A stretch of DNA of 39,262 nucleotides from Sinomicrobium pectinilyticum (GTDB lineage: Bacteria > Bacteroidota > Bacteroidia > Flavobacteriales > Flavobacteriaceae), in the NCBI RefSeq assembly GCF_003725735.1, contig NZ_RJTM01000075.1:1-39262 (forward strand), read 5' to 3'. This document shows positions 1 through 39,262 of this stretch, in pieces (positions within the stretch are counted from its first letter, which is position 1; each line of letters begins with the position of its first letter). The notes beneath the pieces are model-generated. The model ran no database searches. It was not told the origin of the DNA and worked only from the letters and a program-made list of their open reading frames with translations. The translations under genes were made by a program, and so were the position numbers.

Positions 1-225
1 ACCCATTTAATGGGATTAAACAATTATCGTATTTCCTTCTTAATTTCTACCGGAATCTAAAGTATAGGAAGTCCCCTTTAAACGAGCCCCTGTTCATCTC
101 ATATTTTCCTCTAAATGGTTCAACTTCGTATTTTTACCCGAAATCGAGACGATTTGCACATATCTTGACACGATCGGGACAAATCAATTCCGTACATTTT
201 GGTCATAAATTTCCGCCTTGGTAAT
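1..225. other. Gene-free leader upstream of the HTCS gene
   Basis: No coding sequence was recognised here. The stretch is AT-rich near its start and ends with a promoter-like TACATTTTG at 193-201, which departs from the flavobacterial TAnnTTTG box by one extra spacer base. It probably carries the promoter of the sensor gene that begins at 226. No hairpin with a T-run was found. Confidence 0.4.
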
Positions 226-3200: not shown

Positions 3201-4215
3201 CGGCCTTTCCCTTGCACATTCCCTTGCGGAACTTCATGGCGGTTCGCTGGTTTACGGAAAGGATGAGGACGGACTCAATCAATTTCTCCTGCAATTGCCT
3301 GTAATCCGTAAACACGAGGAAACCACGGTTACGGAACAACAAGTACAGGCGAATACGGAAGAAGAAACCGGGGAACTCTTACCCTCTCCCTCCGGCACTC
3401 ATTTGCTCATAGCAGAAGACAACGCAGAACTGTTAAGTTTTATCGCCTCCGAATTCCGGGATGATTACCGGGTGCACACGGCAAAAAACGGGGAAACTGC
3501 TCTGCAGGTCATCCGGAACAACGATATCCAGATAGTCATAAGTGATATTATGATGCCGGGGCTTAACGGGCTGGAATTGTGCAAGGCCGTAAAAACATCG
3601 GTAGAAACCAGCCATATCCCCGTCATTCTGCTCACCGCCAAAGGCGCACTGAATGCAAAAATAGAAGGATTGGAAAACGGTGCCGATGCCTATATAACCA
3701 AACCCTTTTCCATGGAACACCTGAAAGTGCAGGTAAATACCCTCCTGGAGAACCGGAAACATATTATGCAGGCGTACTCCAGTAAGCCCCTGGCCTATCT
3801 GAAAAATGTGGCCCCTTCCAAAACCGAAAGCGATTTTATAAACCGGCTGGACGAGGTGATCATAGCCCATATTTCCGATCCGGATTTCAGTATCGAAACT
3901 ATTGCGGACCGGTTAAGTATGAGCAGGGCCACATTATACAGAAAGATCAAAGCCATTTCCGACCTTACCCCGAACGAACTCATCAATATCACCCGTCTGA
4001 AAAAGGCGGCAGAATTGCTGGCCACGGACAATTACAAGGTTTTTGAAGTAGCTTATATGGTGGGGTACCGGAGCCAGAGCAGTTTCGGGCGCAATTTCCA
4101 GAAACAATTCAATATGTCCCCTACCGAATATGTACAACAGGTTAAGGCAAACGGAAAACAGGAGTGCCCCGAACACAAAAAAAACACTAAACCCCATACC
4201 AATGAAAACCGGTAA
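226..4215 (+). CDS. Hybrid two-component system sensor/AraC regulator (HTCS)
   Basis: This is a one-chain sensor-regulator of 1329 residues, the type that controls polysaccharide utilisation loci in Bacteroidota. The order is a signal peptide (1-20), a two-component regulator propeller with repeated IWxGT-like blades (about 25-640), a Y_Y_Y domain (about 690-750) and one membrane helix (about 760-783). A histidine kinase follows, with His818 in a VAHEIRTPLS motif, N-box INNLFNNAVK and G-box GTGIGLSLA. A receiver domain carries Asp1107 in SDIMMPG, and an AraC-type helix-turn-helix spans about 1205-1310. The periplasmic part should bind a glycan fragment. The longer frame opens at a TTG at 199, but the ATG at 226 directly starts the signal peptide and is preferred. 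No SusC/D pair lies beside it in this window. Its target may lie to the left, or be the oxidoreductase downstream. Confidence 0.93.
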   Translation: MKQLHIFFILICIVNSLYGQDYYFRNYQVENGLSHNSITSSLQDHKGFMWFGTKDGLNRFDGYDFKVFQHNPNDRTSLGNNFISVLHEYENNIWIGTNDGLYLYSQEKEDFRLIDGTSGMAIYDIVHDDNGNIWYIASGKLYRMDAATQLHKGVYDFVDCGNIIKAPDGSIWMSNPRQLFRYIPSNDSFEKADIRDAVTEDPGFHILRLYAPDTSSVLIGTVRHGAFRYDLESGTISNYFEDMQKPLFVRDILNSDTEIWFATESGIYIYDKQNGGFTNFQKNYSDLYSLSDNAVYCFTRDREGGIWAGTYFGGINYRPREFSPFKKYFPKKGENSISGNAIREIHQDKNGILWIGTEDAGINKLDLSTGVFESFLDKNPDGKPFNIHGVLPVGNEIWAGTFQNGIQVLDIRNGDVLRQYREGTLISDFVLDIYRAKNGDIFILTSEGIQTYDPEKDKFETSDHFPSGIHYTCIIEDSDGTLWAGSIMQGVFFYNPGTNERGVLKHAKDNPSSISSNFINGIFRDSDNNIWITTENGLNLLNREDNSVKRYMKSDGLPGNIVYTVLEDKEHRLWISTSNGLAEFNRKKNRFKVYTKNNGLLNDQFNYASGLVSGDGTLYFGSVFGMVSFRPDEFRENTFRAPVLFTDLKINNETVKINDVGSPLKKSVTFSEDIRLTHDQKTFSLNFANLSFTAPKTTEYFYKMEGLDQDWYALGKNHAITFTQLPAGDYTLKIRSQNSDGLQGKTISLHIKILPPPWFSWWAYLIYILVILLVTLWIVRQYHRYSKSISARELAIMKSRKEKEVFQSKIDFFTNVAHEIRTPLSLIRAPLEKLSNTERLNEKASYYLDIMNKNTSRLLDLVNELLDFRKAETENLKLSFSYANISGIIRGIRQQFDTAIRDKDIQLIAREPQQDIYGFVDIKAFHKIINNLFNNAVKYSDNKIILTLSEEGENLEVRVKNDGRTIPEAHAERIFEPFFRMSEDGEQPGTGIGLSLAHSLAELHGGSLVYGKDEDGLNQFLLQLPVIRKHEETTVTEQQVQANTEEETGELLPSPSGTHLLIAEDNAELLSFIASEFRDDYRVHTAKNGETALQVIRNNDIQIVISDIMMPGLNGLELCKAVKTSVETSHIPVILLTAKGALNAKIEGLENGADAYITKPFSMEHLKVQVNTLLENRKHIMQAYSSKPLAYLKNVAPSKTESDFINRLDEVIIAHISDPDFSIETIADRLSMSRATLYRKIKAISDLTPNELINITRLKKAAELLATDNYKVFEVAYMVGYRSQSSFGRNFQKQFNMSPTEYVQQVKANGKQECPEHKKNTKPHTNENR

Positions 4216-26650: not shown

Positions 26651-27364
26651 ATGCTGTTTCCCAGGGTCAACATAGAGCATAAACTCAAGAAATACAGAAA
26701 CAGGTCGGTCTGCGCTCCGGATATGCTACAACAGGTGGCAAAAATACTGGAGGACGACGAGCGGAAGGAAAACCGTATTGCGGAAGCCTTAAACAAAGGC
26801 ACTTTGGGAATCAACCATATGGATTTTTCACAACTGGATACGGACCGGATCTACCATATTTCACATATAAAAAAGATCTGTACCGACTACAGGCTTCGCT
26901 TCCTTGACACCAGGTATTTCAAAGGAGAATTTCCAAGGGAGGCCCTGACCGAAATAAAAGAACTGGAAAAACAACACCGGACCGAGCTCCGCGGTTTCAG
27001 GATGATAGCCCCGGCAGGCCTGTTCCGCCTGGAAAATGCGGACGATCCCATACTTTTCACCCCGCTGGGGAATGATTATTTTTACCTGGTACACAAATGG
27101 GGAAATGACCTTCATCCTTTCCGGAAATGGTTCATGCTCCCGTTTAAAAACCTGCTCAATCTCTTTTTGCTTATTTCGGTAATAAGTCTTGCCATTACCG
27201 CCGTGATACCGTTAAAGCTCTTTACCCCGCACCCTACCGCTTCCCATTTCTGGATGCTGTACTTCTTCGTCCTGAAATCCGTTTGCGGCATTACGCTGTT
27301 TTACGCTTTTGCACTCGGCAAGAATTTTAACGGGATGGTCTGGGACAGCAAGTATTATAATTAG
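26651..27364 (+). CDS. Unknown protein with two C-terminal membrane helices
   Basis: I do not recognise this 237-residue protein. The N-terminal two thirds are soluble and charged, with a helical EDDERKENRIAEALNKG segment and a GFRMIAPAGLFRLENADDP stretch. It ends with two membrane segments at about 175-195 (LFLLISVISLAITAVIPL) and about 203-222. A short tail, GKNFNGMVWDSKYYN, follows. There is no signal peptide, so the soluble part should face the cytosol. A good promoter lies upstream and katG's terminator separates it from katG, so it is a single-gene unit. The clean start and long frame without a rival on either strand support a real gene. Confidence 0.75.
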   Translation: MLFPRVNIEHKLKKYRNRSVCAPDMLQQVAKILEDDERKENRIAEALNKGTLGINHMDFSQLDTDRIYHISHIKKICTDYRLRFLDTRYFKGEFPREALTEIKELEKQHRTELRGFRMIAPAGLFRLENADDPILFTPLGNDYFYLVHKWGNDLHPFRKWFMLPFKNLLNLFLLISVISLAITAVIPLKLFTPHPTASHFWMLYFFVLKSVCGITLFYAFALGKNFNGMVWDSKYYN

Positions 27365-27613: not shown

Positions 27614-28438
27614 TCAATCCTTTTTATTCCCGTAGGCATCCATGGCTTTTTTCACGGAACCATACTTCTTAAGCAATTCTTCGGCCTGTTGGTATTCCAG
27701 TTTTAGTTCTTCAGCCAAAAAGCGTGCACCACGGTCCACCAGCTTTACGTTCGTAAGCTGCATATTCACCATCTTGTTCCCCTTTACCCTGCCGATTCTT
27801 ATCATTAAAGCCGTACTGATCATATTTAATACCAGTTTCTGAGAGGTACCGCTTTTCATCCGGGTACTTCCGGTTACAAATTCGGGGCCGACATTCACTT
27901 CTATAGCGATATCTGCCGCAACAGACAATGGAGATCCGGGATTATTGGTAACTCCGGCAGTGAGAATTCCGTTTGCCTTTGCATCTGCAATCCCCCCCAG
28001 CACATAAGGTGTTGTTCCCGAAGCCGCAATACCCACTACCGTATCTTTTTCGTTTATGTCATATTCTTTAAGGTCTTTCCATGCCTGTTCCATATCGTCT
28101 TCGGCATTTTCCACCGCCTTTCGTATAGCCTTATCTCCCCCGGCAATAATACCTATCACCCTGTCATAAGGCAAGCCGTATGTAGGAGGAATCTCGGAAG
28201 CATCTAAAATCCCTAACCTGCCACTGGTCCCTGCGCCTATATAGAACAAACGGCCACCCTCCGTAAACCTCCGGGCAAGTTCATCTACCAGGATTGTAAT
28301 CTGAGGGATGACTGCGCTCACGGACTTCGCTACCTTTGCATCTTCTTTATTGATATTCTGTAAAATGGAAGCTGTTTCCATTTGTTCCAGCTCCGTATAA
28401 GGAGAAGGTTTTTCCGTGATTTTTGTGTATTTCCGCAT
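27614..28438 (-). CDS. murQ: N-acetylmuramic acid 6-phosphate etherase MurQ
   Basis: MurQ removes the lactyl ether of MurNAc-6-phosphate to give GlcNAc-6-phosphate and D-lactate, the key cytosolic step in reuse of peptidoglycan sugar. The 274-residue protein has the SIS-domain sugar-phosphate loop GAGTSGRLGILDASE, with the acidic residue of the family in ASEIPPTYG. GIAASGTTPYVLG and GSTRMKSGTSQKL are also conserved. The length is slightly below the E. coli protein (298) but no motif is missing. It follows the DeoR-type gene in the same direction after 110 bases, and both diverge from the SusC/D operon. No MurNAc kinase is adjacent, so the phosphate must be added by an enzyme coded elsewhere. 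Confidence 0.96.
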   Translation of the reverse strand: MRKYTKITEKPSPYTELEQMETASILQNINKEDAKVAKSVSAVIPQITILVDELARRFTEGGRLFYIGAGTSGRLGILDASEIPPTYGLPYDRVIGIIAGGDKAIRKAVENAEDDMEQAWKDLKEYDINEKDTVVGIAASGTTPYVLGGIADAKANGILTAGVTNNPGSPLSVAADIAIEVNVGPEFVTGSTRMKSGTSQKLVLNMISTALMIRIGRVKGNKMVNMQLTNVKLVDRGARFLAEELKLEYQQAEELLKKYGSVKKAMDAYGNKKD

Positions 28439-28548
28439 GCGTATCGAATAATTAAAGAATATTGTTAATCATTAAATAAAAAACAGGGACCCGTTATTTC
28501 CGGGTATGTGATAAAATTTTTCTTTCCGGGGAAACCCTGTATCCGGGA

Positions 28549-29298
28549 TCAAAGTATGACTATATTCTTATCGCGGAAACTTTCCAGGGCTTTATCTTCC
28601 GGGGCCAGTTCCGTAATAAGGACATCCACATCTTCTATATTGCAAATTTTATATCGCTGAACGGTATTTAATTTCTCGGAAATTACCGGCGCTACGATTT
28701 TTTTTGCTGCCCTGATCATGGCTTTCTTCATCTGTACGATCTCCCAGTCAAATTCCGTAAGCCCCTGGCCCGAATCGATGGAGTTGGTCCCCAGGAAGCA
28801 AACATCCACTTTTATTTCCGAAAGCATGTTTATCGCGGTACCCCCTACAGCAATCTGCGAATCCTTGGATAATTTTCCTCCTATAAGAATCACCTCCACA
28901 TTTTGTTTTGCCAGCAATTGGCTGGCTACGGCAAGACTTGGAGTAAAACAGGTTATGGCCAGACCGGGCGGCAAAACACGGGCCAGTTCCATATTGGTCG
29001 TGCCTCCGCTCAATAAAACCACCTGCCCGCTCTTTAACAGCCCTGTCGCCTTTCGGGCTATCTGTAGTTTCTTTTCAATGGAATATACATTTTTATCCTG
29101 CACATTGTGGTTGTAAAAGCCTAACGAGATTGCCCCTCCATGAACCTTTTTAAGTTTTTTCTCATCGTGTAATTCCTTTATATCTCTCCTTGCCGTATCT
29201 ATGGATACTTTCACAAGTTCGGCTATATCGGTAAGCAGTACCCTGTTGTGCACCATGACCTCGTTGAGGATGATCTGCTTCCTCTCTTCTTTTAACAT
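28549..29298 (-). CDS. DeoR/GlpR-family transcriptional regulator
   Basis: This is a repressor-type regulator of 249 residues. A DeoR helix-turn-helix lies at about 18-55 (LTDIAELVKVSIDTARRDI, then KKVHGGAI). A sugar-phosphate-sensing DeoRC domain follows (about 75-235), with SGGTTN and LGTNSID in the ligand pocket. Members bind a phosphorylated sugar and release DNA. The frame is open to 29364, but that extension is hydrophobic and covers the promoter box at 29341, so the ATG at 29298 is chosen. The gene precedes murQ and diverges from susC, so MurNAc-6-phosphate or GlcNAc-6-phosphate is a sensible inferred effector. In E. coli murQ is instead controlled by the RpiR-family MurR. Confidence 0.9.
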   Translation of the reverse strand: MLKEERKQIILNEVMVHNRVLLTDIAELVKVSIDTARRDIKELHDEKKLKKVHGGAISLGFYNHNVQDKNVYSIEKKLQIARKATGLLKSGQVVLLSGGTTNMELARVLPPGLAITCFTPSLAVASQLLAKQNVEVILIGGKLSKDSQIAVGGTAINMLSEIKVDVCFLGTNSIDSGQGLTEFDWEIVQMKKAMIRAAKKIVAPVISEKLNTVQRYKICNIEDVDVLITELAPEDKALESFRDKNIVIL

Positions 29299-29340
29299 TT
29301 TTTCTTCTCTTTTAGAACATAAAAATAGCACTAATTCCCG

Positions 29341-29348
29341 CAAATATA
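29341..29348 (-). promoter_or_regulatory. -7 promoter box TATATTTG for deoR-type gene and murQ
   Basis: On the minus strand this reads TATATTTG, an exact TAnnTTTG match, 42 bases before the regulator's ATG. A minus-strand TTG at 29367-29369, 18 bases upstream, may be the -33 element. Confidence 0.6.
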
Positions 29349-29378
29349 AGAAAGAAAATACCAAAACAATTTAAAATA

Positions 29379-29433
29379 TTGCAAATAGCTGCAAAATATT
29401 GCATATAATTACAATTAATTGCATACATTTGAA
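29379..29433. promoter_or_regulatory. Array of TTGCA-like motifs with 10-bp period
   Basis: TTGCA (29379), CTGCA (29389), TTGCA (29399), TTACA (29409), TTGCA (29419) and TTGAA (29429) start exactly 10 bases apart, so they lie on one face of the helix. A second pair of TTGCA lies at 29551 and 29561, again 10 bases apart. The array overlaps the susC-side promoter box and lies next to the divergent regulator promoter. It is the likely operator of the DeoR-type protein. Confidence 0.6.
29424..29431 (+). promoter_or_regulatory. -7 promoter box TACATTTG on the susC side
   Basis: This is an exact TAnnTTTG match embedded in the phased TTGCA array, giving a leader of about 180 bases to the SusC ATG. 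The leader contains the second TTGCA pair. A weaker alternative, TTGAC (29573) with TAACTTTT (29593), lies too near the ATG. Confidence 0.45.
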
Positions 29434-29613
29434 AATGAATAAAAACTAATATAAAACCATATATAGTGAAATATAATCTCTAATAATGTTAAAATACAAT
29501 ATATGATACACAATTAATAAAGCCCACTCACCACGGGTATACAACCAGTATTGCAATTTTTTGCAGTAATAATTGACATTAAACTAAATAACTAACTTTT
29601 AAACACTCAAATT

Positions 29614-32600
29614 ATGAAGCATTTCAAAAGGATATTCCTGTTCCTGTTTTGCTTGTTCTCTGCATCTTTACATGCCCAAAACAGAACCATATCGGGTGAT
29701 GTAAAGGATGAAGAAGGAACGCCTTTACCCGGAGCAAGTATTGTTGTAAAGGGTACTTCAACAGGTACGGAAAGCGATTTTGACGGCCTGTTCACCCTGG
29801 ATATTCCACAGAAAGAGAATACCGTCCTGGTCATTTCCTCCCTGGGTTTTATCACACAGGAGGTAGAAGTAGGTAACAAGACCACATTTTCCATATCGCT
29901 CCGGACAGATGTAGAAAGTCTTGATGAAGTGGTCGTGGTAGGTTACGGAACTCAGAAAAAGAAGAACTTAACCGGCTCCGTAGCTACCATAGACTCAAAA
30001 GTACTGGAATCCAGGCCCATTACGGATGTAGGAAGAGGCCTTCAGGGCGTTTCTCCCGGCTTAACCATTACTTCGTCCAGCGGACAAATAGGCCAGGAAC
30101 CTAAAATAACCTTGAGGGGGTCTACCGGAACCCTGGGCACGCCCGGTGGTGCGCAACCCCTTATATTGGTAGATAACGTAGAAATTCCCAGCCTGCAAAC
30201 CATTAATCCCGAAGATATTGAAGATATCTCCGTACTTAAAGATGCGGCTTCAACCTCGATTTACGGGGCCCGGGGAGCCTGGGGGGTGATCCTTATCACC
30301 ACCAAGAAAGGCAGGCGTAATTCCGCTCCCACGATCTCCTATTCCAATAACTTTTCCTGGGCCACCCCTACCAATACCCCTAAAGTTGCCCCGGCAGCAG
30401 AAGGGGCCGAAATGGCCTTTGCTGCAGTACAACGAAGAATACCTTCTTTAGACGCTTTTGGCGTTGTAGGTATGTATATAGACCAGGTTGCCATAGATAA
30501 AATGAGGGAATGGGATGAGCTGTACTCCGGGCAGGACCTCGGTATGGAAATGGTAGAAGGCAGGGATTATGAAATACGCGACGGACGGCTTTTCTTTTAC
30601 CGCTCGTGGGACCCCAGAAAACTGTTCGTAGATAAATGGGCATTACAGCAAAAACACGATGTCTCCATTTCAGGCGGGGGCGAACGGACCAATTATTACC
30701 TGGGACTGGGATATTTAAATCAGGGAGGCGTATATAAAACCAATCCCGATAAATACGAAAGGTATAATGTAAACCTCAGTTTAAACACAACCATAACGGA
30801 CTGGGCAGATGTAAGAGCAAAGATCTTACATACCAATTCCAAAACCACGGAACCTTTCAAATTCGGTTCCGCTACATACGATGCCTGGTATTACACTACC
30901 CGATGGCCTGCCTTTTACCCGTACGGAACCGTGGACGGCAAACCGTTCCGGAACCATATTTCGGAAGTGGAACAGGCCAATATGAACGAAAATAATTATT
31001 CTCTGTCCAGGTTAAACCTAGGCGCTACACTTACTCCCATAGATAATTTATCCCTGAATTTCGATTTCACCCACGACCGTGTGGAAGAGCACGAGCATCA
31101 GGTTGGGGGAACACTCTATGCTTATAATTTCTGGGCCCAGGGTGCTGATTTTTCATATGTGCCGTACAGCAGTCCTTCCTATGACCGCGTGCAATACGAC
31201 TCGGACTGGAGCCGCAGGAATACCGCAAAAGCATTCGGGACCTATGATATTGACCTGGATGACCACCAGTTCAAAATAACCGTGGGAGGAGATATGGAGG
31301 AATACGAGTTCTGGTCCCATTACTCGCAACGAAGAAATCTCCTGAACCCGGAACAGGGAGAACTGGAACTCGCCACAGGAGATCAGTTTGTCGGGGGAGA
31401 CCGGGACAAATGGTCCACGCTCGGTTTTTTCGGCCGGGTAAACTACTCGTATAAAAATAAGTTCCTGGTGGAAATAAATTCGAGATACGACGGTTCGTCC
31501 AGACTGTCTTCGGACGAAAAATGGGCTTTCTTCCCTTCCGCTTCCCTGGGCTATGTACTTTCCGAAGAAGATTTCATGCAACCCGTCAAAAACACATTGT
31601 CCTTTTTCAAACTAAGAGGGTCCTACGGATCTATCGGAAACCAGAATACGTACCTGCGCAATATTTACCGCGTTATGGCATCGACAAATTCCGGCTGGCT
31701 GATAGATTCGAACAACCAGGCCACGGTAGGTACACCGGGTGCCCTTCCCTCTTCGCTCACCTGGGAAACCATAACCACGCTCGACTTCGGCCTGGACGCC
31801 AGGTTCTTCAACAACAAGCTCGGATTGGTATTTGACTGGTACAGGCGTACGGTAAGTGACATGCACAGTCCCGGTGTTACCCTTCCCGCCACTTTCGGAA
31901 CTGCTTCCCCGGTACGAAATTACGGAGAGCTGCAAACCGACGGATGGGAAATTGCACTGGATTTCAGGCACCGGTTTAAAAACGACCTGAATATCAACGC
32001 TACGGTAGCCCTGACCGATTATAAGGAAAAGGTGACCAAGTATGCCAACACCATTCAGGGAATAAACTCAAACTACGAGGGCAAATACCTCGGGGAAATA
32101 TGGGGATATGAAACGGATGGCTTCTTTACCGAAGCCGATTTCAATGCGGACGGAAGCTATGCCGACGGTGTAGCGGATCAGAGCCTTCTCGAAGGCAATT
32201 ACAACTGGTTCAAATACGGTCCTGGGGACATTAAGTTCAAAGACCTTAACGGCGACGGAGTGATTGACTACGGCTCGGAAACAGTCGGAGATTCCGGGGA
32301 TATGAAGGTCATAGGGAACTCCACTCCACGCTATCAGTACAGTATTCAGCTGGGAGCGGACTGGAAGGGATTCGACCTGAATATTTTTATGCAGGGCGTC
32401 GGGAAAAGAGACTTTTGGGCCAACGGTCCGGTCTTCATCCCGGGATTCCGTTACGGCGAAGGCTGGTATGATCATCAACTGGATTACTGGACGCCCGAAA
32501 ACCCGGATGCATACTACCCGAGGCCCAACGACCAGCAACAGTCCAACAAGGCCATGAATTTCTATCCGCAAACCAGGTACCTGCTGGATATGTCCTACCT

Positions 32601-32838
32601 CAGAATGAAGAACATCACCTTCGGATACACCTTACCCGAATCCGTTACAAGCAAACTGAAGATTTCCAGGTGCAGGCTTTATTTCAGCGGGGAGAACCTG
32701 TTTGAGTTCACCCCGGTCCAGATCCCTGTAGATCCCGAAGTGGACTATACTACCGACGGTTTAAATGACACCTCTACATTCGGAAGGGTTTATCCTTACA
32801 GAAGGTCTTTTTCCTTCGGACTTCAAGTTTCCCTGTAA
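29614..32838 (+). CDS. SusC/RagA-type TonB-dependent outer-membrane transporter
   Basis: This outer-membrane transporter of 1074 residues imports oligomers using energy from TonB. A signal peptide (about 1-22, ending SLHAQ) is followed by a carboxypeptidase-regulatory-like beta domain (about 25-100). The SusC motif LDEVVVVGYGTQKKKNLTG and the plug domain (about 110-230) come next, then a 22-stranded barrel that ends in the aromatic-rich SFGLQVSL. Size and layout are normal. The partner SusD gene starts 17 bases downstream. In this setting the cargo is inferred to be peptidoglycan fragments, because murQ and a DeoR-type gene are divergent and muramyl-processing genes follow. No anti-sigma or HTCS gene is nearby. 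Confidence 0.95.
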   Translation: MKHFKRIFLFLFCLFSASLHAQNRTISGDVKDEEGTPLPGASIVVKGTSTGTESDFDGLFTLDIPQKENTVLVISSLGFITQEVEVGNKTTFSISLRTDVESLDEVVVVGYGTQKKKNLTGSVATIDSKVLESRPITDVGRGLQGVSPGLTITSSSGQIGQEPKITLRGSTGTLGTPGGAQPLILVDNVEIPSLQTINPEDIEDISVLKDAASTSIYGARGAWGVILITTKKGRRNSAPTISYSNNFSWATPTNTPKVAPAAEGAEMAFAAVQRRIPSLDAFGVVGMYIDQVAIDKMREWDELYSGQDLGMEMVEGRDYEIRDGRLFFYRSWDPRKLFVDKWALQQKHDVSISGGGERTNYYLGLGYLNQGGVYKTNPDKYERYNVNLSLNTTITDWADVRAKILHTNSKTTEPFKFGSATYDAWYYTTRWPAFYPYGTVDGKPFRNHISEVEQANMNENNYSLSRLNLGATLTPIDNLSLNFDFTHDRVEEHEHQVGGTLYAYNFWAQGADFSYVPYSSPSYDRVQYDSDWSRRNTAKAFGTYDIDLDDHQFKITVGGDMEEYEFWSHYSQRRNLLNPEQGELELATGDQFVGGDRDKWSTLGFFGRVNYSYKNKFLVEINSRYDGSSRLSSDEKWAFFPSASLGYVLSEEDFMQPVKNTLSFFKLRGSYGSIGNQNTYLRNIYRVMASTNSGWLIDSNNQATVGTPGALPSSLTWETITTLDFGLDARFFNNKLGLVFDWYRRTVSDMHSPGVTLPATFGTASPVRNYGELQTDGWEIALDFRHRFKNDLNINATVALTDYKEKVTKYANTIQGINSNYEGKYLGEIWGYETDGFFTEADFNADGSYADGVADQSLLEGNYNWFKYGPGDIKFKDLNGDGVIDYGSETVGDSGDMKVIGNSTPRYQYSIQLGADWKGFDLNIFMQGVGKRDFWANGPVFIPGFRYGEGWYDHQLDYWTPENPDAYYPRPNDQQQSNKAMNFYPQTRYLLDMSYLRMKNITFGYTLPESVTSKLKISRCRLYFSGENLFEFTPVQIPVDPEVDYTTDGLNDTSTFGRVYPYRRSFSFGLQVSL

Positions 32839-32855
32839 CCGCAAAAACGAAAACA

Positions 32856-34568
32856 ATGAAAAAAATATATCATATTTTAACTGTAACCCTATGTTTCACC
32901 CTGTTAACGGGTTGTGACAAAGATTTTTTGGAAGTGCCCCCGAAAGATCAGTTGGTAGACGAAACTTACTGGACGAACGAGGGAAATGTCAGGACATTCG
33001 CGTTTGGTTTTTATACAGCGTATTTTACCGGTTACGGGTCCGGCTATACCTGGGGAAAATATTTTTCCGGCCAGTCCCTTAACGATGATTTTGCCCCTTC
33101 CAATCCTCCCCCCTTTATTCAGCAGGTTCCCTCTTCCGGTGGCGGATGGACCTTCGCATGGGTGCGAAAAGCCAATATATTCATAGACCGGGTACAAACG
33201 GTCCCTATGGAAGAAGAAGCCATTAATCACTGGACCGGGATCGGTCGCTTTTTCCGCGCCCTGGAATATCACGACCTGGTCAAAGCTTTCGGGGATGTTC
33301 CTTATTTCGATACCGAATTAGCCGAAGATGATTACGACATGCTCTATAAACCCAGGGACAGCCGTGTCCTGGTTATGGACAAAGTACTCGAAGATTTTAC
33401 GTATGCCGCCGAAAACGTACGGACTTCCGTAGATAACGAGGGCCTGGAAGTCAACAGGGATGTTGTCCTGGCCTTTATGTCCAGGGTATTTCTCTTCGAA
33501 GGTACCTGGCAAAAATACCACGAAAACAATACACAAAAAGCTGCCGAATACCTGGAAGCCGCCAAATGGGCCGCAGAGCAAGTCATAAATTCCGGAAACT
33601 ATTCCCTGGGGAATTACAGGGAGGTTTTTAATTCTCTCAGCCTGTCGTCCAACCCGGAAGTTATCCTGTACCGGGAATATGAGGAAGGTATGCTTACCCA
33701 TGCGCTCAACAGTTATAACAACAAGGAACCCCAGAGCGGTATTTCCAAAAACGCGGTCGATGCTTACCTGTGCAGCGACGGCTTACCTGTCTCCGTATCC
33801 CCGCTCTACCAGGGAGACCAGGGCATTGAAAATATAATGGCGGACAGGGACGGACGCATCTATGAGACCCTGGTTTCTACCGAACTTCGCCTGAACGGTA
33901 TTGCATTCAATCATTCCACAACGGGTATAGCCACTCACAAATTCCTCAATGAAGAGATAAAGGATGATCCCGTCGGAAGTTCCAATCTGAACCCTACCGA
34001 TGCACCCGTGATCCGCTACGGTGAAGTACTCATGAATTACGCAGAAGCCGCCGCCGAACTGGCTACCGTAGGAGGCGGTAGCCTGAGCCAGGCGGATATT
34101 GACAAATCCATAAATGTTTTACGTGACAGGCCCGGAACAGCCATGCCGCATTTACAGCTGAACGGCGATCAACCGTCCGCCAATGGTGTGACATATGACG
34201 ACCCGGACAGGGACGCCGACGTATCCCCGGTACTTTGGGAGATAAGGCGCGAGCGCCGTATAGAACTGATGATGGAAGGATTCCGCCTGGACGACCTCAA
34301 ACGGTGGAAAAAACTGGAATACGCGGATATGCTGGACAATCCCACCATCAACAGGGGGGCATGGATAAGAAAAAGTGACTATCCCGGCGCCAACCTGGAC
34401 AATATGGTACTCACGGAAGGAAGCGAGGGGTATATCATACCGGCCCCTGCTTCCGAATCCCAAAGGGCATTTGACGACCCGAGAGTCTACCTGAACCCCA
34501 TTCCGCTGGACCAGATCAACCTGTACCTGGAACAGGGATATGAACTGACACAAAACCCGGGGTGGTGA
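32856..34568 (+). CDS. SusD/RagB-type surface lipoprotein
   Basis: This is the surface glycan-binding partner of the SusC protein, 570 residues. The lipoprotein signal ends in LLTGC with Cys20 as the lipidated residue. The SusD fold has an N-terminal TPR-like helical part (AFMSRVFLFEGTWQKYH at about 205-221) and the C-terminal RagB/SusD domain. The family signature ending LWEIRRERRIELMMEGFRLDDLKRWK is near residue 450-485. It follows susC after 17 bases, so they are co-transcribed. A strong terminator follows, so expression of downstream genes may be lower. The ligand is unknown but by context is probably a muropeptide or glycan strand. Confidence 0.95.
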   Translation: MKKIYHILTVTLCFTLLTGCDKDFLEVPPKDQLVDETYWTNEGNVRTFAFGFYTAYFTGYGSGYTWGKYFSGQSLNDDFAPSNPPPFIQQVPSSGGGWTFAWVRKANIFIDRVQTVPMEEEAINHWTGIGRFFRALEYHDLVKAFGDVPYFDTELAEDDYDMLYKPRDSRVLVMDKVLEDFTYAAENVRTSVDNEGLEVNRDVVLAFMSRVFLFEGTWQKYHENNTQKAAEYLEAAKWAAEQVINSGNYSLGNYREVFNSLSLSSNPEVILYREYEEGMLTHALNSYNNKEPQSGISKNAVDAYLCSDGLPVSVSPLYQGDQGIENIMADRDGRIYETLVSTELRLNGIAFNHSTTGIATHKFLNEEIKDDPVGSSNLNPTDAPVIRYGEVLMNYAEAAAELATVGGGSLSQADIDKSINVLRDRPGTAMPHLQLNGDQPSANGVTYDDPDRDADVSPVLWEIRRERRIELMMEGFRLDDLKRWKKLEYADMLDNPTINRGAWIRKSDYPGANLDNMVLTEGSEGYIIPAPASESQRAFDDPRVYLNPIPLDQINLYLEQGYELTQNPGW

Positions 34569-34588
34569 TTTTGAGTTAGTTGTTGTTT

Positions 34589-34627
34589 GAGATTCTTTGA
34601 GAACATTCTCAGGGAATCTCTTTTTTT
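34589..34627 (+). terminator. Terminator between susD and the GHL10 gene
   Basis: GAGATTC (34589-34595) pairs with GAATCTC (34614-34620), with an inner GAGA/TCTC stem, followed by seven T residues (34621-34627). The stop codon of susD is 21 bases upstream. Confidence 0.75.
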
Positions 34628-34634
34628 ATCTTTG
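34627..34634 (+). promoter_or_regulatory. -7 promoter box TATCTTTG after the terminator
   Basis: This exact TAnnTTTG match begins on the last T of the terminator run, 30 bases before the ATG of the GHL10 gene. No good -33 element is visible. It suggests that the downstream three genes can be transcribed apart from susCD. Confidence 0.45.
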
Positions 34635-34664
34635 AAAATATAATCGTTACCCATCATTTAAAAA

Positions 34665-36203
34665 ATGACAAAAAGAAAATCCGTACGGATATACTTCATG
34701 GCACTGCTTGGCATCCTTGTCACCGGGTGCCATTCCGGTTTAAAATCCGTATATACCAATAAAGCCGGCAAGGCCCGGTGGGACCCCGGAACACCTTACG
34801 ATACGGAAGAGTTCAGGGCAGCCTGGATCGCCACCGTAGCCAATATCAACTGGCCCGGTAACCCGGGATTGCCTGTGGATATCCAGAAACAGGAGGCCAT
34901 ACGGCTCCTGGACTTCCTGGAACAACATCATTTTAATGCCGTTATTTTCCAGGTGCGCCCGCAGGCCGACGCTTTATACAACAGTTCCCTGGAACCCTGG
35001 TCGTATTACCTGACCGGTAAACAGGGGGTTGCTCCCGTTCCTTTTTACGATCCGCTTGAATTCTGGATAGAAGAAGCCCATAAAAGAGGTCTCGAATTAC
35101 ACGCCTGGCTGAATCCGTACAGGGCACACCATACGCAGGGAGATGTTATCAGCGATAAATCCGTGATCCGCACCAACAAAGAACTGGTCGTGGAACTCGA
35201 TAACGGCATGTGGTGGATGGACCCCGGATTAAAGGGCACACAGGATCACTCACTGGCAGTGGTTACCGATATCGTTAAAAGGTATGATATAGACGGCATC
35301 CATTTTGACGATTATTTTTATCCCTACGATTCCTATCACAACGGAAAGGATTTTCCCGATGATGTGAGCTGGCAGCAGTACCGGGAATCGGGCGGCAAAT
35401 TATCCCGGAACGACTGGAGAAGAGAAAATGTCAACCGGTTTATAAAAAGAGTATACGACGCGATCAAACGGGAAAAACCTTATGTCAAATTCGGTTTAAG
35501 CCCCTTCGGGATATGGAGACCCGGTTATCCCGGCTCCGTATCCGGTTACGATCAGTACGACAAGCTGTTTGCGGATGCCAGGCTGTGGCTCAACAAGGGA
35601 TGGATCGATTATTTTTCCCCGCAATTGTACTGGAAGATCAATAAAGAAGGCCAGAGTTTTCCGGAGCTCCTGGGATGGTGGCAGGGAGAGAATACCTATA
35701 ACAAACACCTCTGGCCGGGTATCAAAGATGATCATGGCGGGGATATTGCCAATGCGGATGAAGTAGTAAACCAGATTATGATTACCAGGGGTATGTTGCC
35801 GCAAAGCAAAGGTGTCATACACTGGAACGTGGCCCCTCTCATGAAATACGATACCGTATCCGAAGCCCTTGTAAAAGGGCCTTATAAGAACAAGGCCCTG
35901 GTCCCTGCCAGCCCCTGGCTGGACAATACGCCACCGGTCCCGCCTGTCATTAATTTCTCAGATACGGAAGAAACAATTTCCGTATCCTGGACACATCCGG
36001 ATGAAAATGATATCTTTAAATGGGTATTATACTATAAGTATCAAAACGAAAACTGGCAACATTCCATCTTAACCGGGGCCGACAGGGACCATGCCTTAAA
36101 AAAGCTATCGGGGCAAGGGAACAAATTACATAAGATAGGTATAACCGCTGTGGACAGATCCGGCAATCAAAGCAGGTTCTTTCACAAAGAAGTAAACAAT
36201 TAA
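34665..36203 (+). CDS. GHL10-family (DigH-like) glycosyl hydrolase lipoprotein
   Basis: This is a 512-residue lipoprotein with lipobox LVTGC (Cys22). The catalytic domain (about 45-410) is a TIM-barrel of the glycosyl-hydrolase-like 10 family (former DUF187). It shows FRAAWIATVANINWPG, FQVRPQADALYNS, LHAWLNPYRAH and DGIHFDDYFYPY (Asp215-Asp216). A fibronectin type III-like domain closes the protein (about 420-505). In E. coli the relative DigH (YddW) cleaves peptidoglycan glycans that lack stem peptides (established knowledge). The substrate here is inferred. It is probably held in the periplasm or at the surface. It has its own promoter box and is followed after one base by the symporter gene, so the two are likely translationally coupled. 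Confidence 0.9.
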   Translation: MTKRKSVRIYFMALLGILVTGCHSGLKSVYTNKAGKARWDPGTPYDTEEFRAAWIATVANINWPGNPGLPVDIQKQEAIRLLDFLEQHHFNAVIFQVRPQADALYNSSLEPWSYYLTGKQGVAPVPFYDPLEFWIEEAHKRGLELHAWLNPYRAHHTQGDVISDKSVIRTNKELVVELDNGMWWMDPGLKGTQDHSLAVVTDIVKRYDIDGIHFDDYFYPYDSYHNGKDFPDDVSWQQYRESGGKLSRNDWRRENVNRFIKRVYDAIKREKPYVKFGLSPFGIWRPGYPGSVSGYDQYDKLFADARLWLNKGWIDYFSPQLYWKINKEGQSFPELLGWWQGENTYNKHLWPGIKDDHGGDIANADEVVNQIMITRGMLPQSKGVIHWNVAPLMKYDTVSEALVKGPYKNKALVPASPWLDNTPPVPPVINFSDTEETISVSWTHPDENDIFKWVLYYKYQNENWQHSILTGADRDHALKKLSGQGNKLHKIGITAVDRSGNQSRFFHKEVNN

Positions 36204-36204
36204 T

Positions 36205-37653
36205 ATGGGACCGGCCGTAGTTTTTGGGGTTATTGCTATTTATTTTATCCTGTTGATGGTCATCGGGCACCTGACTTCCGGGACGGCAGACAACCGGGCT
36301 TTCTTTACCGCTAACAAACAGTCCCCCTGGTACCTGGTAGCCTACGGTATGGTAGGCGCATCTTTGTCCGGTGTTACCTTTATATCCGTTCCCGGGGAGG
36401 TGGGTAACAGCGGCTGGACATACCTGCAGTTCGTCATGGGGAATATGGTGGGATATGTGATTATAGCATATGTACTCATTCCCCTCTTTTATAAAATGAA
36501 CCTCACTTCCATCTACGAATATCTCCGGACCAGGTTCGGTTACAAGTCGTATTATACCGGGGCTTCTTTTTTTCTGATCTCCCAGACCATCGGGGCTTCC
36601 TTCCGCCTGTTCCTGGCCGCACTTGTATTGCAGCTGGCTTTCTTTAATGCCTTTGGCATTCCCTTCTGGGTAACGGTTTGTGTAACCATAGCCCTGATCT
36701 GGCTGTATACCCGGAAAGGCGGTATCAAGACCATTGTATGGACCGATACCCTGCAAACCACATTTTTACTGCTCGCGGTCACGATCAGTATTTACGTAAT
36801 TATTCGTCACCTCGATATAAGCACCACCCTCCTTATCGATAAAGTAAAGAATTCCCCTATGTCCGGGATCTTCGACTGGGACTGGTCTTCCAATACCTAT
36901 TTTTTCAAAAATTTCCTCGCGGGCATTTTTATTACCATAGCCATGAACGGACTGGACCAGAATGTGATGCAGAAAAACCTGACCTGCAAAAATGAAAAAG
37001 AGGCGCGGAAAAATATTTTCTGGTTTGCCCTTACGTTCTTCATGGCCACCCTGCTCTTCCTGGTCCTCGGAGTTCTGCTGTACGAATATGCGGGGACTCA
37101 CCACATTGCCATCCCCGACAGGACCGACGATCTTTACCCGATGCTGGCCCTGAATCATTTCGGAACACTGGCGGCAATCGTCTTCCTGATCGGTATCGTA
37201 GCTGCAGCGTTTTCCAGCGCCGATTCGGCCCTGACGGCTTTGACCACCTCTTTCTGTATTGATATTCTCAACATAAACAACAAAAGGAAAGATCCGGAAA
37301 AAACACGGCTGGTCGTACATATCCTGTTTACCGTACTGATGTTTGGAGTAATTCTTATCTTTAACAGTTTTAATGACAGCAGTGTAGTCAATGCCGTTTT
37401 CAAGGTAGCAGGATTTACCTATGGCCCTCTGCTGGGCCTGTTCGTTTACGGTATTTTTTCCGGATTACAGGTCCGTGACAGATTTGTCCCCTGGGTCTGT
37501 ATAGCTTCTCCCGTTATTTCCGTTATCCTGGATATAAATTCCGGAAAATGGTTCGGGGGATATGAATTCGGCTTTGAGATACTCCTGGTAAATGCCCTGA
37601 TCACCATTGCCGGGCTACGCTTGCTTTCTTTTAATTCTAAACGGACAAGATGA
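36205..37653 (+). CDS. Sodium:solute symporter (SSS family)
   Basis: This is an inner-membrane sodium-coupled importer of 482 residues with about 13 helices. The SSS core is visible in SGVTFISVPGEVGNSGWTYL, with the first broken helix of the LeuT fold, and in AAAFSSADSALTALTTSFCIDI, which holds the Ser/Ala-rich sodium site. Relatives carry sugars, amino acids or sialic acid. The ATG is one base after the stop of the GHL10 gene, and its own stop overlaps an ATG of the next gene (ATGA at 37650). It is a natural candidate to carry muramyl or anhydro-muropeptide sugars into the cytosol for MurQ. This is inference from context. Confidence 0.92.
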   Translation: MGPAVVFGVIAIYFILLMVIGHLTSGTADNRAFFTANKQSPWYLVAYGMVGASLSGVTFISVPGEVGNSGWTYLQFVMGNMVGYVIIAYVLIPLFYKMNLTSIYEYLRTRFGYKSYYTGASFFLISQTIGASFRLFLAALVLQLAFFNAFGIPFWVTVCVTIALIWLYTRKGGIKTIVWTDTLQTTFLLLAVTISIYVIIRHLDISTTLLIDKVKNSPMSGIFDWDWSSNTYFFKNFLAGIFITIAMNGLDQNVMQKNLTCKNEKEARKNIFWFALTFFMATLLFLVLGVLLYEYAGTHHIAIPDRTDDLYPMLALNHFGTLAAIVFLIGIVAAAFSSADSALTALTTSFCIDILNINNKRKDPEKTRLVVHILFTVLMFGVILIFNSFNDSSVVNAVFKVAGFTYGPLLGLFVYGIFSGLQVRDRFVPWVCIASPVISVILDINSGKWFGGYEFGFEILLVNALITIAGLRLLSFNSKRTR

Positions 37654-37748
37654 AAAACATTTTCCGCAGTCATGCGCAGCCCGAAAAATTACTCCCCTTA
37701 TTCCATATAAGGGATAAAAACAGCACAACCATCCTCAGCTTCAGGCAT

Positions 37749-38966
37749 ATGAAAAATGCAGTAGCGGTATTATCCCTCTGCATACTTTTTGCTATGTCCT
37801 GTACGGAGAACACCCGGTCCGAAGCAACCGGAATTGTGGAAAAAAGCATACTGGCCACCAAAAACCGGTTTGCACCCGACAAAAGGGTTGCCCTCTTCGA
37901 TGTAACCGCAAAAAAAGAGGGAGATGCCTATATATTAAAAGGTGAAACCAACCTCCCCCATGCCCTTAAGGCATTAAAAGCGGAATTGGAACAAAATGGC
38001 ATAACCTGTAGGGACAGTATAACCCTCTTACCTCTCCTTTCTGCGGACAGCAACGGCGTTATCAGGATATCCGTGGCCAACCTCCGGGCAAAACCTTCCC
38101 ATTCTTCCGAACTGGTCACCCAGGCCACATTGGGAACCCCGGTTACTATCCTCAAAGAAAAAAACGATTGGTATTATATACAAACCCCGGACAAGTACCT
38201 GGCATGGGTAGACAAAGGGGGACTGGTGCCCAAAGACAAGGCCGCTTTCGCTGCATGGAACAATTCGTCAAAAATCATCTACCGGGCAGTATACGGAACA
38301 TCATATGCCGGGCCGGAAACCACGGCGTCCCCCGTTTCCGATCTCGTAGCCGGAAGTATACTGGAATACCTGGACGAAACACCGGAGTATTACCGGGTAC
38401 AATACCCCGACCAAAAAACAGCTTATCTCAAAAAGGACGATGCCGTACCGTATACGGATTGGCTGCAATCGCTTTATGCAGACACTACCCGCCTGGTTAA
38501 AACAGCAAAACACCTGATGGGCCTCCCCTATTTGTGGGGTGGGACCTCAACCAAGGGCGTGGACTGCAGCGGATTTACCAAAACCGTATATTACCTCAAC
38601 GGAATGATTCTTCCACGCGATGCCTCCCAACAGGTACACACCGGTACTCTGGTAGACGACTCGGGAGATTTTCAAAAACTGGTACCGGGCGACCTGCTGT
38701 TTTTCGGTGTCCCGGCAAAAGACGGTAAGCCCGAGCGCATCGTACATGTGGGGATGTGGATAGGCGATAACAAATTCATCCATTCCATGGGGGATGTCCA
38801 CATCAGTTCGGTTGATAAAAACTCCCCGGAGTTTGACGAGTACAATTACAATCGTTATCTCCGTACCAAGCGAATCCTCGGCAAAGAAGGACTGGATTTC
38901 AAAGACAAGGAAGGGCACATAACAATCACCTCAAAGCAGGACAATAACTATAGAATTAAAATTTAA
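37749..38966 (+). CDS. SH3b-NlpC/P60 endopeptidase (YkfC-like) lipoprotein
   Basis: This is a cysteine peptidase of 405 residues that should cut the gamma-D-glutamyl-diamino acid bond of peptidoglycan stem peptides. A lipoprotein-like signal ends near FAMSC (Cys18, weak lipobox). SH3b domains (about 90-150 and about 175-235) come before the NlpC/P60 domain (about 250-395). The catalytic triad is Cys273 in VDCSGF, His333 in IVHVGMWIG and His345 in FIHSMG. The frame also opens at 37650, overlapping the symporter stop as ATGA, but that start would put 33 polar residues before the signal, so 37749 is preferred. It closes the operon. SH3b-NlpC/P60 proteins of this layout belong to murein peptide recycling in other bacteria. 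Confidence 0.9.
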   Translation: MKNAVAVLSLCILFAMSCTENTRSEATGIVEKSILATKNRFAPDKRVALFDVTAKKEGDAYILKGETNLPHALKALKAELEQNGITCRDSITLLPLLSADSNGVIRISVANLRAKPSHSSELVTQATLGTPVTILKEKNDWYYIQTPDKYLAWVDKGGLVPKDKAAFAAWNNSSKIIYRAVYGTSYAGPETTASPVSDLVAGSILEYLDETPEYYRVQYPDQKTAYLKKDDAVPYTDWLQSLYADTTRLVKTAKHLMGLPYLWGGTSTKGVDCSGFTKTVYYLNGMILPRDASQQVHTGTLVDDSGDFQKLVPGDLLFFGVPAKDGKPERIVHVGMWIGDNKFIHSMGDVHISSVDKNSPEFDEYNYNRYLRTKRILGKEGLDFKDKEGHITITSKQDNNYRIKI

Positions 38967-39087
38967 TACATGACAAAATTTGTTTTATGCGGATTTATCG
39001 GGATCAATGCACAGCCCAAAGGACAATGTTGTTCAGTTAGTGTTATAGTTGTTTTAAAAAGATAGATGTTCCATATTATAAGTATCT
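38967..39087. other. Gene-free tail after the operon
   Basis: A single 31-codon frame (ATG at 38970) runs through here but has no recognisable content. No terminator is seen before the family A repeat begins at 39088. Confidence 0.4.
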
Positions 39088-39262
39088 AAAGGCTCCTCCT
39101 TTCAGATGAAGGGAGGTACCCGAGCGAAGCAATGGGGGGAGGGTTTGAAATCCCGGATCATTGGTATAACCGCAAATACCTGCGTACTCACGCCAAAGCC
39201 TGGGCTGGTCAAAACTCCCCGTCCCGCAAAGCGGTCCACCCCTCTTCATCTGAAGAGGGGAG
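39088..39262. repeat. Hairpin-bounded dispersed repeat, family A, copy 2 (at window edge)
   Basis: This is the second copy of the element at 6261-6475, in the same orientation. GGCTCCTCC pairs with the GATGAAGGGAGG block to form the left hairpin. GGAGGGTTTGAAATCCC is at 39138-39154, TGGTCAAAACTCCCCG follows, and a perfect 22-bp palindrome (CCCCTCTTCA/TGAAGAGGGG arms, 39239-39260) ends the copy. The central 40 bases differ from copy 1. The window stops right at the terminal hairpin. Confidence 0.75.

Follow-up and report, generated by a model that had tools for sequence, protein, structure and literature searches.

The 39,262-nucleotide window analysed here is the whole of contig C228 of the Sinomicrobium pectinilyticum genome (5.65 Mb in 235 contigs), and the last seven genes on it probably serve to take up and catabolise fragments of peptidoglycan, controlled by a local regulator of the DeoR type. 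murQ and deoR are read leftward, while genes for SusC, SusD, a GHL10 lipoprotein, an SSS-family symporter and an SH3b-NlpC/P60 peptidase are read rightward. An earlier note on this DNA had given the genes these names and had proposed a peptidoglycan-scavenging locus driven by the SusC-SusD pair (SusCD). All seven open reading frames (ORFs) are open at the coordinates in Table 1 and match these families in Pfam or NCBIfam, and the scavenging proposal gains support from conserved linkage of the genes in relatives and from a conserved regulatory array.

The layout resembles that of a Sus-like polysaccharide utilization locus (PUL). susC and susD are adjacent, with a gap of 17 bp; the same gene run encodes two co-directional degradative lipoproteins, GHL10 and NlpC/P60; and a regulator gene, deoR, is linked together with the conserved array. 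The other gaps in the rightward run are 96, 1 and 95 bp, the NlpC/P60 start being taken as ATG 37749, and by reading SusD, GHL10 and NlpC/P60 appear to open with lipobox-like signal sequences. The mechanically called ORFs reach TTG 29364 for deoR and begin at 37650 for NlpC/P60; also by reading, ATG 29298 was preferred as the likelier start of the former and ATG 37749 as the start of a lipoprotein.

Survey of orthologous SusCD loci

A search with four SusD orthologues returned 313 relatives, and the best 80 of 313 were kept (loci L107-L186). These were compared, over flanks of up to 10 kb, with 40 other SusD loci (controls) drawn from five genomes of the family, each of which also carries a target locus. 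Marker profiles were built from fetched sequences and run on both sets; MurQ, NamZ, amidase_2, NlpC/P60 and epimerase-like proteins were counted as strict peptidoglycan markers. For amidase_2 a rebuilt profile was used, with a threshold of 1e-6 and with three previously missed or unlabelled proteins of L117, L118 and L133 among its seeds.

At least one strict marker is present in 39 of the 80 loci (36/80 before the profile was rebuilt) and in none of the 40 controls; because the 80 loci share descent and the controls come from the window's family alone, Fisher values for the survey overstate its strength. When the six seed-donor loci are set aside the count is 33/74, and of the 33 labels for genus or group, 17 include a locus with a strict marker. 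If GHL10 and BadF are counted as well, 58/80 loci are positive against 0/40 controls. Individually, GHL10 is found in 40/80 loci, NamZ in 23, MurQ in 20, BadF-type kinase in 19, epimerase-like genes in 13 and NlpC/P60 in 11, each against 0/40 controls, and SSS in 22/80 against 1/40. The MurQ count shows linkage of murQ to susCD homologues in relatives; its absence was one of the two outcomes by which the note would have regarded the proposal as refuted.

The MurQ-DeoR / SusC-SusD-GHL10-SSS block itself is repeated in L096 and L110 (Cellulophaga fucicola), where a GH3/beta-lactamase-like protein comes next; in L096 one opposite gene and NagX lie in between. Based on this repeat and on the strict-marker contrast, the locus layout is beyond chance. 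In Christiangramia and Salinimicrobium (L111-L113, L129, L135, L140) genes for ROK, a NagP-like protein, an ORF, GH20, MurQ, SusC, SusD, GHL10, SSS, an epimerase-like protein and NlpC/P60 run in one direction, so that the gene-order comparison that had been called for finds epimerase-like, NlpC/P60, MurQ, SusCD, GHL10 and SSS genes together. In Algoriphagus (L120, L123, L126, L127) and Echinicola (L124, L125, L154) the orthologous susCD genes diverge from a neighbouring pair, MurQ and a BadF-type kinase, and three more Algoriphagus loci have the kinase with no MurQ in the flank. In L103, by likeness to the L036 set, SusC-SusD-GHL10-AmpG-NagZ-(untested ORF)-AnmK occupy one strand and DeoR-MurQ the other. 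Besides the window, L151 was the locus observed to have an NlpC/P60 gene immediately after SSS. The gene immediately 3' of susD, on the same strand, encodes GHL10 in 24/80 loci and a metallophosphoesterase protein in 13/80. SusC orthologues of L107-L114 are 71-77% identical to that of the window, and at E <= 1e-90 the window SusD has matches in 10 of 397 family genomes, one of which is the window genome itself.

MurQ and its genomic contexts

The window MurQ scores 370.6 bits against NF003915 (cut-off 168) and sits at the cut-off of the equivalog TIGR00274 (302), with 302.3 bits in one search and 301.7, just below, in the genome scan. It aligns with solved N-acetylmuramic acid (MurNAc)-6-phosphate etherases (4s12, 8.6e-75), as would be expected of the etherase of a MurTKQ-type system. 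A second full murQ copy is found on contig C39 of the same genome, where by reading it adjoins a dnaX-like gene.

Used as a query, the window MurQ has a match in 59 of 60 genomes, its own counted. Own copy aside, a distinct group at 71-75% identity is found in six genomes (G005, G006, G016, G023, G026, G031); matches in the remaining genomes are at about 63% identity or less, or cover the SIS domain only. In G006, G016, G023 and G031 the DeoR-MurQ pair lies opposite a run of NagB, AmpG-type, NagZ-type and AnmK genes, and GHL10 is present in these loci in G016, G023 and G031, not in G006. In the L037 set the NagB-like and AnmK proteins exceed their NCBIfam cut-offs, and the AmpG-family (174.5/350) and NagZ-like (150.5/207) proteins both fall below theirs. 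In a tree of 46 MurQ proteins the window copy belongs to a 13-member clade (support 100/99) composed of copies from DeoR-, AnmK- or SusCD-linked loci; the genome's second MurQ falls outside.

Degradative enzymes and symporter

Among solved structures the GHL10 protein has a single relative at E <= 0.001, Cwp19 (1.9e-72), and E. coli DigH presumably belongs to the same domain family. Cwp19 is a lytic transglycosylase (PMC6016235), and DigH cleaves denuded glycans (PMC12288456). For the Cwp19 pocket 13 residues have been named (PMC5765458), and the window protein shares ten of them, given an inferred numbering offset of 5.

As a query, GHL10 has matches in 54 of 299 family genomes at E <= 1e-60. 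A group at 57-67% identity comprises 14 genomes, the window genome aside, and all 14 loci were read. SusC-SusD lie upstream in 8 of the 14 (L053, L067, L068, L071, L072, L073, L076, L078), with one small gene intervening in L053 and L076; MurQ is present in 6, NlpC/P60 in 7 and an epimerase-like gene in 6. Pfam confirmed example neighbours as epimerase-like (MR_MLE), amidase_2, an amidase_2-NamZ fusion, NamZ, GH20, ROK and MFS, and the BcrAD_BadFG match of the L067 BadF protein is below cut-off. The epimerase scores 152.7 against an NCBIfam cut-off of 343 for L-Ala-D/L-Glu epimerase and is named by likeness; other epimerase-like genes of these loci were identified from N-termini.

Over 283 residues the NlpC/P60 protein can be aligned with the SH3b-NlpC/P60 structures 3npf (1.7e-77) and 3pvq/4r0k (1.7e-74), which represent YkfC-like enzymes of Bacteroides; such enzymes cleave the bond between gamma-D-Glu and the diamino acid. 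SH3b domains are present, and the motifs DCSG, HVG and FIH, presumably the C40 catalytic Cys/His/His sites, align with 3npf and 3pvq, suggesting a YkfC-like activity. The SSS symporter scores 156 bits against TIGR00813, below the cut-off of 184; by analogy with MurT (see below) its substrate might be a MurNAc-type sugar.

The deoR-susC intergenic region

The 315-bp gap between deoR (ATG 29298) and susC contains TGCA at 29380, 29390, 29400 and 29420 and TACA at 29410, i.e. units 10 bp apart. Exact TGCA-N6-TGCA has three matches in the window, all inside this gap, and the three-unit pattern (TGCA-N6)3 has its single perfect match in the 5.65-Mb genome here. With one mismatch allowed the three-unit pattern occurs at 9 places genome-wide, three of them overlapping in the gap, and a reversed control pattern at 2. 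Of the six places outside the gap, C32:97090 is the one inspected, and it lies at the end of an ORF. One single-mismatch TGCA-N6-TGCA match lies upstream of the C39 murQ.

The pattern was followed in 20 deoR gaps, namely the window and 19 of 42 deoR-like places at more than 52% identity, leaving aside L114 (a double of L073) and L101, which is cut off. The best three-unit match has at most two mismatches in 14 of these gaps and three or four in 6, compared with 0/64 control regions upstream of large ORFs at two mismatches or fewer; the gaps are kin and the pattern was derived from them, so this conservation is support, not proof. The match is better than all 60 shuffles in 6/20 gaps. One-mismatch 9-mers are no commoner in the gaps than in shuffles, whereas 10- and 11-mers are commoner. 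Units of the predicted array lie near both the deoR and the susC starts, and DeoR is a plausible ligand. The link between murQ and susCD, which had been said to rest on layout and a shared regulatory region, is thereby strengthened by a shared operator-like array conserved across deoR gaps.

Two DeoR paralogues are encoded in L084:745-15181. One faces NagB with MurQ behind it, and the second faces SusC, followed by SusD, GHL10, AmpG, NagZ and AnmK genes.

Candidate pathway parts elsewhere in the genome

None of the seven genes encodes a MurNAc kinase, so that the same-operon kinase of MurTKQ has no counterpart at the locus. The earlier note had reasoned that such an enzyme must exist, and the genome does hold two candidates, a BadF-type kinase on C32 and AnmK on C67. 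The BadF-type kinase (75% to the L067 kinase) has the solved relatives 1zxo (2.1e-48) and 8ow9, a ‘putative novel MurNAc kinase’ (2.3e-44), and its substrate is likely to be MurNAc. An epimerase-like gene is found on C133 (59%), NamZ on C85, and two GH3/beta-lactamase-type proteins on C229 (61%) and C32 (44%). AmpG is not among the seven genes and none was found in the genome with one query, in a search that included no positive control. Counting parts encoded outside the locus, a full peptidoglycan pathway is thus conceivable.

On C229, a 4.6-kb contig of the same genome (L228), positions 82-3995 hold an ORF that by reading is amidase_2-like, resembling the L071 amidase_2 protein, and that overlaps the GH3/beta-lactamase-type ORF by 4 bp; it starts 82 bp from the contig edge. 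These genes are possibly part of the same locus as C228. As a continuation of C228, C229 showed just chance-size matches to the C228 end, leaving adjacency unproven, and a comparison by eye with four metallophosphoesterase tails gave no match for its beginning.

Features of the locus and neighbouring observations

Table 1. Features of the putative peptidoglycan-uptake region of the window, with a recurrent neighbour of orthologous loci
Feature	Position	Strand	Basis
murQ, MurNAc-6-phosphate etherase	27614..28438	-	NCBIfam, solved relative 4s12, tree clade
deoR, DeoR/GlpR-type regulator	28549..29298	-	DeoRC and HTH_DeoR; orthologues adjoin murQ or diverge from susC
Predicted DeoR operator, five TGCA-like units, 10-bp spacing	29380..29423		Putative DeoR binding
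Second predicted site, TGCA-N6-TGCA	29552..29565		About 50 bp upstream of susC start
susC, TonB-dependent outer-membrane importer	29614..32838	+	TIGR04056, 871 bits
susD, surface lipoprotein	32856..34568	+	SusD_RagB, 114 bits; LLTGC lipobox by reading
Terminator-like hairpin, possible attenuator	34589..34620	+	Between susD and GHL10
GHL10 (DigH/Cwp19-type) lipoprotein, predicted glycan-cleaving	34665..36203	+	GHL10, 216.5 bits
SSS-family symporter, inner-membrane uptake, putative MurT-like role	36205..37653	+	Pfam SSF, 101.9 bits
SH3b-NlpC/P60 peptidase, YkfC-like, predicted stem-peptide endopeptidase	37749..38966	+	Structure relatives 3npf, 3pvq/4r0k
Phosphoesterase-PQQ protein	L155:11776-13632, L123:11755-13623, L124:17477-19312		Pfam on L155 protein

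Terminator-like sites in the region number 14 against a shuffle mean of 15.0, i.e. not above chance. The contig ends 296 bp past the NlpC/P60 gene, so there is no sequence to the right in which to seek the further genes that the note had suggested; hairpin-like repeats occupy 39080-39262, and the assembly may have broken here because of them. A 237-aa ORF (26651-27364) separates murQ from a katG-like peroxidase gene and has no Pfam match at 0.001.

Some neighbours of the orthologous SusCD loci also recur. A calcineurin-like phosphoesterase of about 620 aa with a PQQ-type beta-propeller, not found in the window, adjoins SusCD in 34/80 loci against 0/40 controls. A phosphodiester glycosidase (NAGPA, PF09992) lies beside NamZ and SusCD in several loci, L159 (4382-5254) among them, and is present in 11/80 loci against 1/40 controls; such an enzyme could open phosphodiester-linked wall polymers. 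Another SusC-SusD pair of the window genome (L095, G000 C32, 8594-14553) is followed by an epimerase-like gene (36%) and preceded, by reading, by FecR- and sigma-like ORFs. L095 is maybe a further locus for D-amino-acid peptides.

Proposed pathway and alternative explanations

In the proposed route, a peptidoglycan fragment would be caught by SusD and imported by TonB-driven SusC. In the periplasm the glycan would be cut by GHL10 and the stem peptide by the YkfC-like NlpC/P60 enzyme, and a MurNAc-type sugar would then be carried inward by the SSS symporter. Phosphorylation would fall to a kinase encoded elsewhere, the BadF-type enzyme on C32 or, for a sugar that enters as 1,6-anhydroMurNAc, AnmK on C67, after which MurQ would remove lactate to give N-acetylglucosamine-6-phosphate. 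DeoR might act at the TGCA sites that separate deoR-murQ from susC, with relief probably by a sugar phosphate; both transcription units would therefore be coupled.

Several observations weigh against such a pathway. Strict markers are missing from 41/80 SusD-orthologue loci, including 7 Chitinophaga (all), 5 Rufibacter, 4 Dyadobacter and 4 Galbibacter; 22/80, among them all 7 Chitinophaga loci, also have neither GHL10 nor BadF, whereas the 4 Galbibacter loci hold GHL10, DeoR and BadF between them. AnmK and AmpG were detected in 0/80 loci, and there is no clear enrichment for GH3 NagZ-like proteins (16/80 vs 3/40), GH20 (8/80 vs 2/40), NagB (5/80 vs 1/40) or NagA (7/80 vs 1/40). Within the GHL10 group, L067, L070, L073, L076, L077 and L079 carry no MurQ, NlpC/P60 or epimerase gene; L067 and L073 hold DeoR and BadF kinase, and L079 holds NamZ. 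The counterparts of Cwp19 Gly328, Phe367 and Ser368 differ in the window GHL10, the specificity of the SSS symporter is not readable from sequence, and N-acetylglucosamine kinases (8oqk 2.5e-37, 8ow7 4.7e-37) are likewise among the relatives of the BadF kinase. In G005, a genome of the same genus, the SusC that DeoR-MurQ faces is unrelated (25%), and the neighbours differ. Lastly, no TGCA-N6-TGCA, with one mismatch allowed, was found in the 350 bp upstream of mechanically called starts of the AnmK, BadF, NagB, epimerase, NamZ and C32 GH3 genes; before the C229 genes just 81 bp are readable.

Within peptidoglycan uptake, SusCD might serve to recapture fragments of the cell's own wall turnover lost to the medium, a narrower version whose probability overlaps with that of uptake as a whole and which is possible but rather doubtful. 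DeoR-MurQ pairs of relatives face NagB-AmpG-NagZ-AnmK-type operons, which normally serve self-recycling, and in L103 and L084 SusCD itself lies among AmpG, NagZ and AnmK genes. However, the second MurQ on C39 already serves the genome, and the locus is patchy, as the 10 of 397 family genomes with a SusD match indicate. The amidase_2, NamZ and phosphodiester-acting enzymes added in relatives would moreover suit foreign walls, though they are no proof of them.

It is unlikely that the locus handles amino sugars or chitin oligosaccharides in general, with the peptidoglycan genes as bystanders and MurQ for a side product. GH20, NagP-like, NagB, NagX and NagA-like genes do recur in relatives, and the 7 Chitinophaga loci have a NagA-like gene directly 3' of susD and no peptidoglycan marker, but the GH20, NagB and NagA counts given above show no clear enrichment. 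NlpC/P60, NamZ, amidase_2 and epimerase act on parts of peptidoglycan that chitin does not contain, and the substrate of MurQ is MurNAc-6-phosphate; since MurQ and NlpC/P60 are peptidoglycan-specific, chitin was rejected as the principal explanation. More improbable still is that the region combines two neighbours that have nothing to do with each other, a recycling unit of deoR and murQ and a SusCD operon for some unrelated glycan. This would account for the differing operons that DeoR-MurQ faces across genomes, including the unrelated SusCD of G005, but the SusCD operon itself contains GHL10 and NlpC/P60, SusCD orthologues accompany peptidoglycan genes even in loci that show no DeoR, as in Christiangramia and Echinicola, and array units lie near both starts. 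Uptake and catabolism of peptidoglycan fragments is thus preferred.

Comparison with known systems and implications

PULs are usually regulated by SusR, hybrid two-component systems or sigma/anti-sigma pairs, whereas the regulator here is of the DeoR type, the enzymes are GHL10 and NlpC/P60, and the cargo is predicted to be peptidoglycan. YkfABCD-type systems serve murein peptide use in Bacillus; they share with the window an SH3b-NlpC/P60 peptidase, which an epimerase-like gene adjoins in relatives. In S. pectinilyticum, by contrast, the epimerase-like gene is unlinked (C133), and the locus further includes an outer-membrane SusCD. The roles of Cwp19 and DigH lie in autolysis and cell separation, whereas the window GHL10 is encoded in a putative uptake operon.

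In Tannerella forsythia, MurT is a member of the sodium symporter superfamily encoded in an operon with MurK and MurQ (PMC5790795). The window resembles this MurTKQ/AmpG operon in combining a sodium-symporter-type transporter with MurQ, and T. forsythia uses outside MurNAc and muropeptides (PMC5790795, PMC7670621, PMC5388701). The window differs in that the kinase is not adjacent and that the regulator is DeoR rather than GppX. The available part of PMC5388701 does not mention SusC, SusD or TonB, and those of PMC5790795 and PMC7670621 do not mention SusD.

Elsewhere, a GH3-beta-lactamase enzyme has been tied to peptidoglycan turnover (PMC6987092), and peptidoglycan-degrading genes in marine samples have been discussed with no SusCD for peptidoglycan named in the parts available (PMC10877868, PMC10811738). 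A large PUL survey, as far as its available text goes, finds GH23, GH24, GH25 and GH73 strongly under-represented in PULs, yet present in several predicted PULs, and reads classical peptidoglycan enzymes as mostly outside PULs (PMC6499787). Among the matches listed in our literature search, in which subscription papers were mostly outside coverage, none dealt with an outer-membrane SusCD that imports peptidoglycan fragments. The parts are already known; the locus as a whole is Sus-like, with peptidoglycan as its most likely cargo.

We suggest, tentatively, that the orthologous SusCD group might be a dedicated importer of peptidoglycan fragments across much of Bacteroidota. In several lineages the metallophosphoesterase-PQQ protein and the phosphodiester glycosidase may strip polymers bound through phosphodiesters, for instance teichoic acid linkage units, such that foreign Gram-positive debris would be eaten. 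The group may have been overlooked because its neighbouring enzymes lie outside the classical peptidoglycan families of carbohydrate-active enzymes. Peptidoglycan is an abundant biopolymer, and if our reading of the cargo is true, it is a food source little described for SusCD loci. A SusD family tied to peptidoglycan would be a candidate for direct binding tests and would mark wall-eating bacteria in metagenomes.

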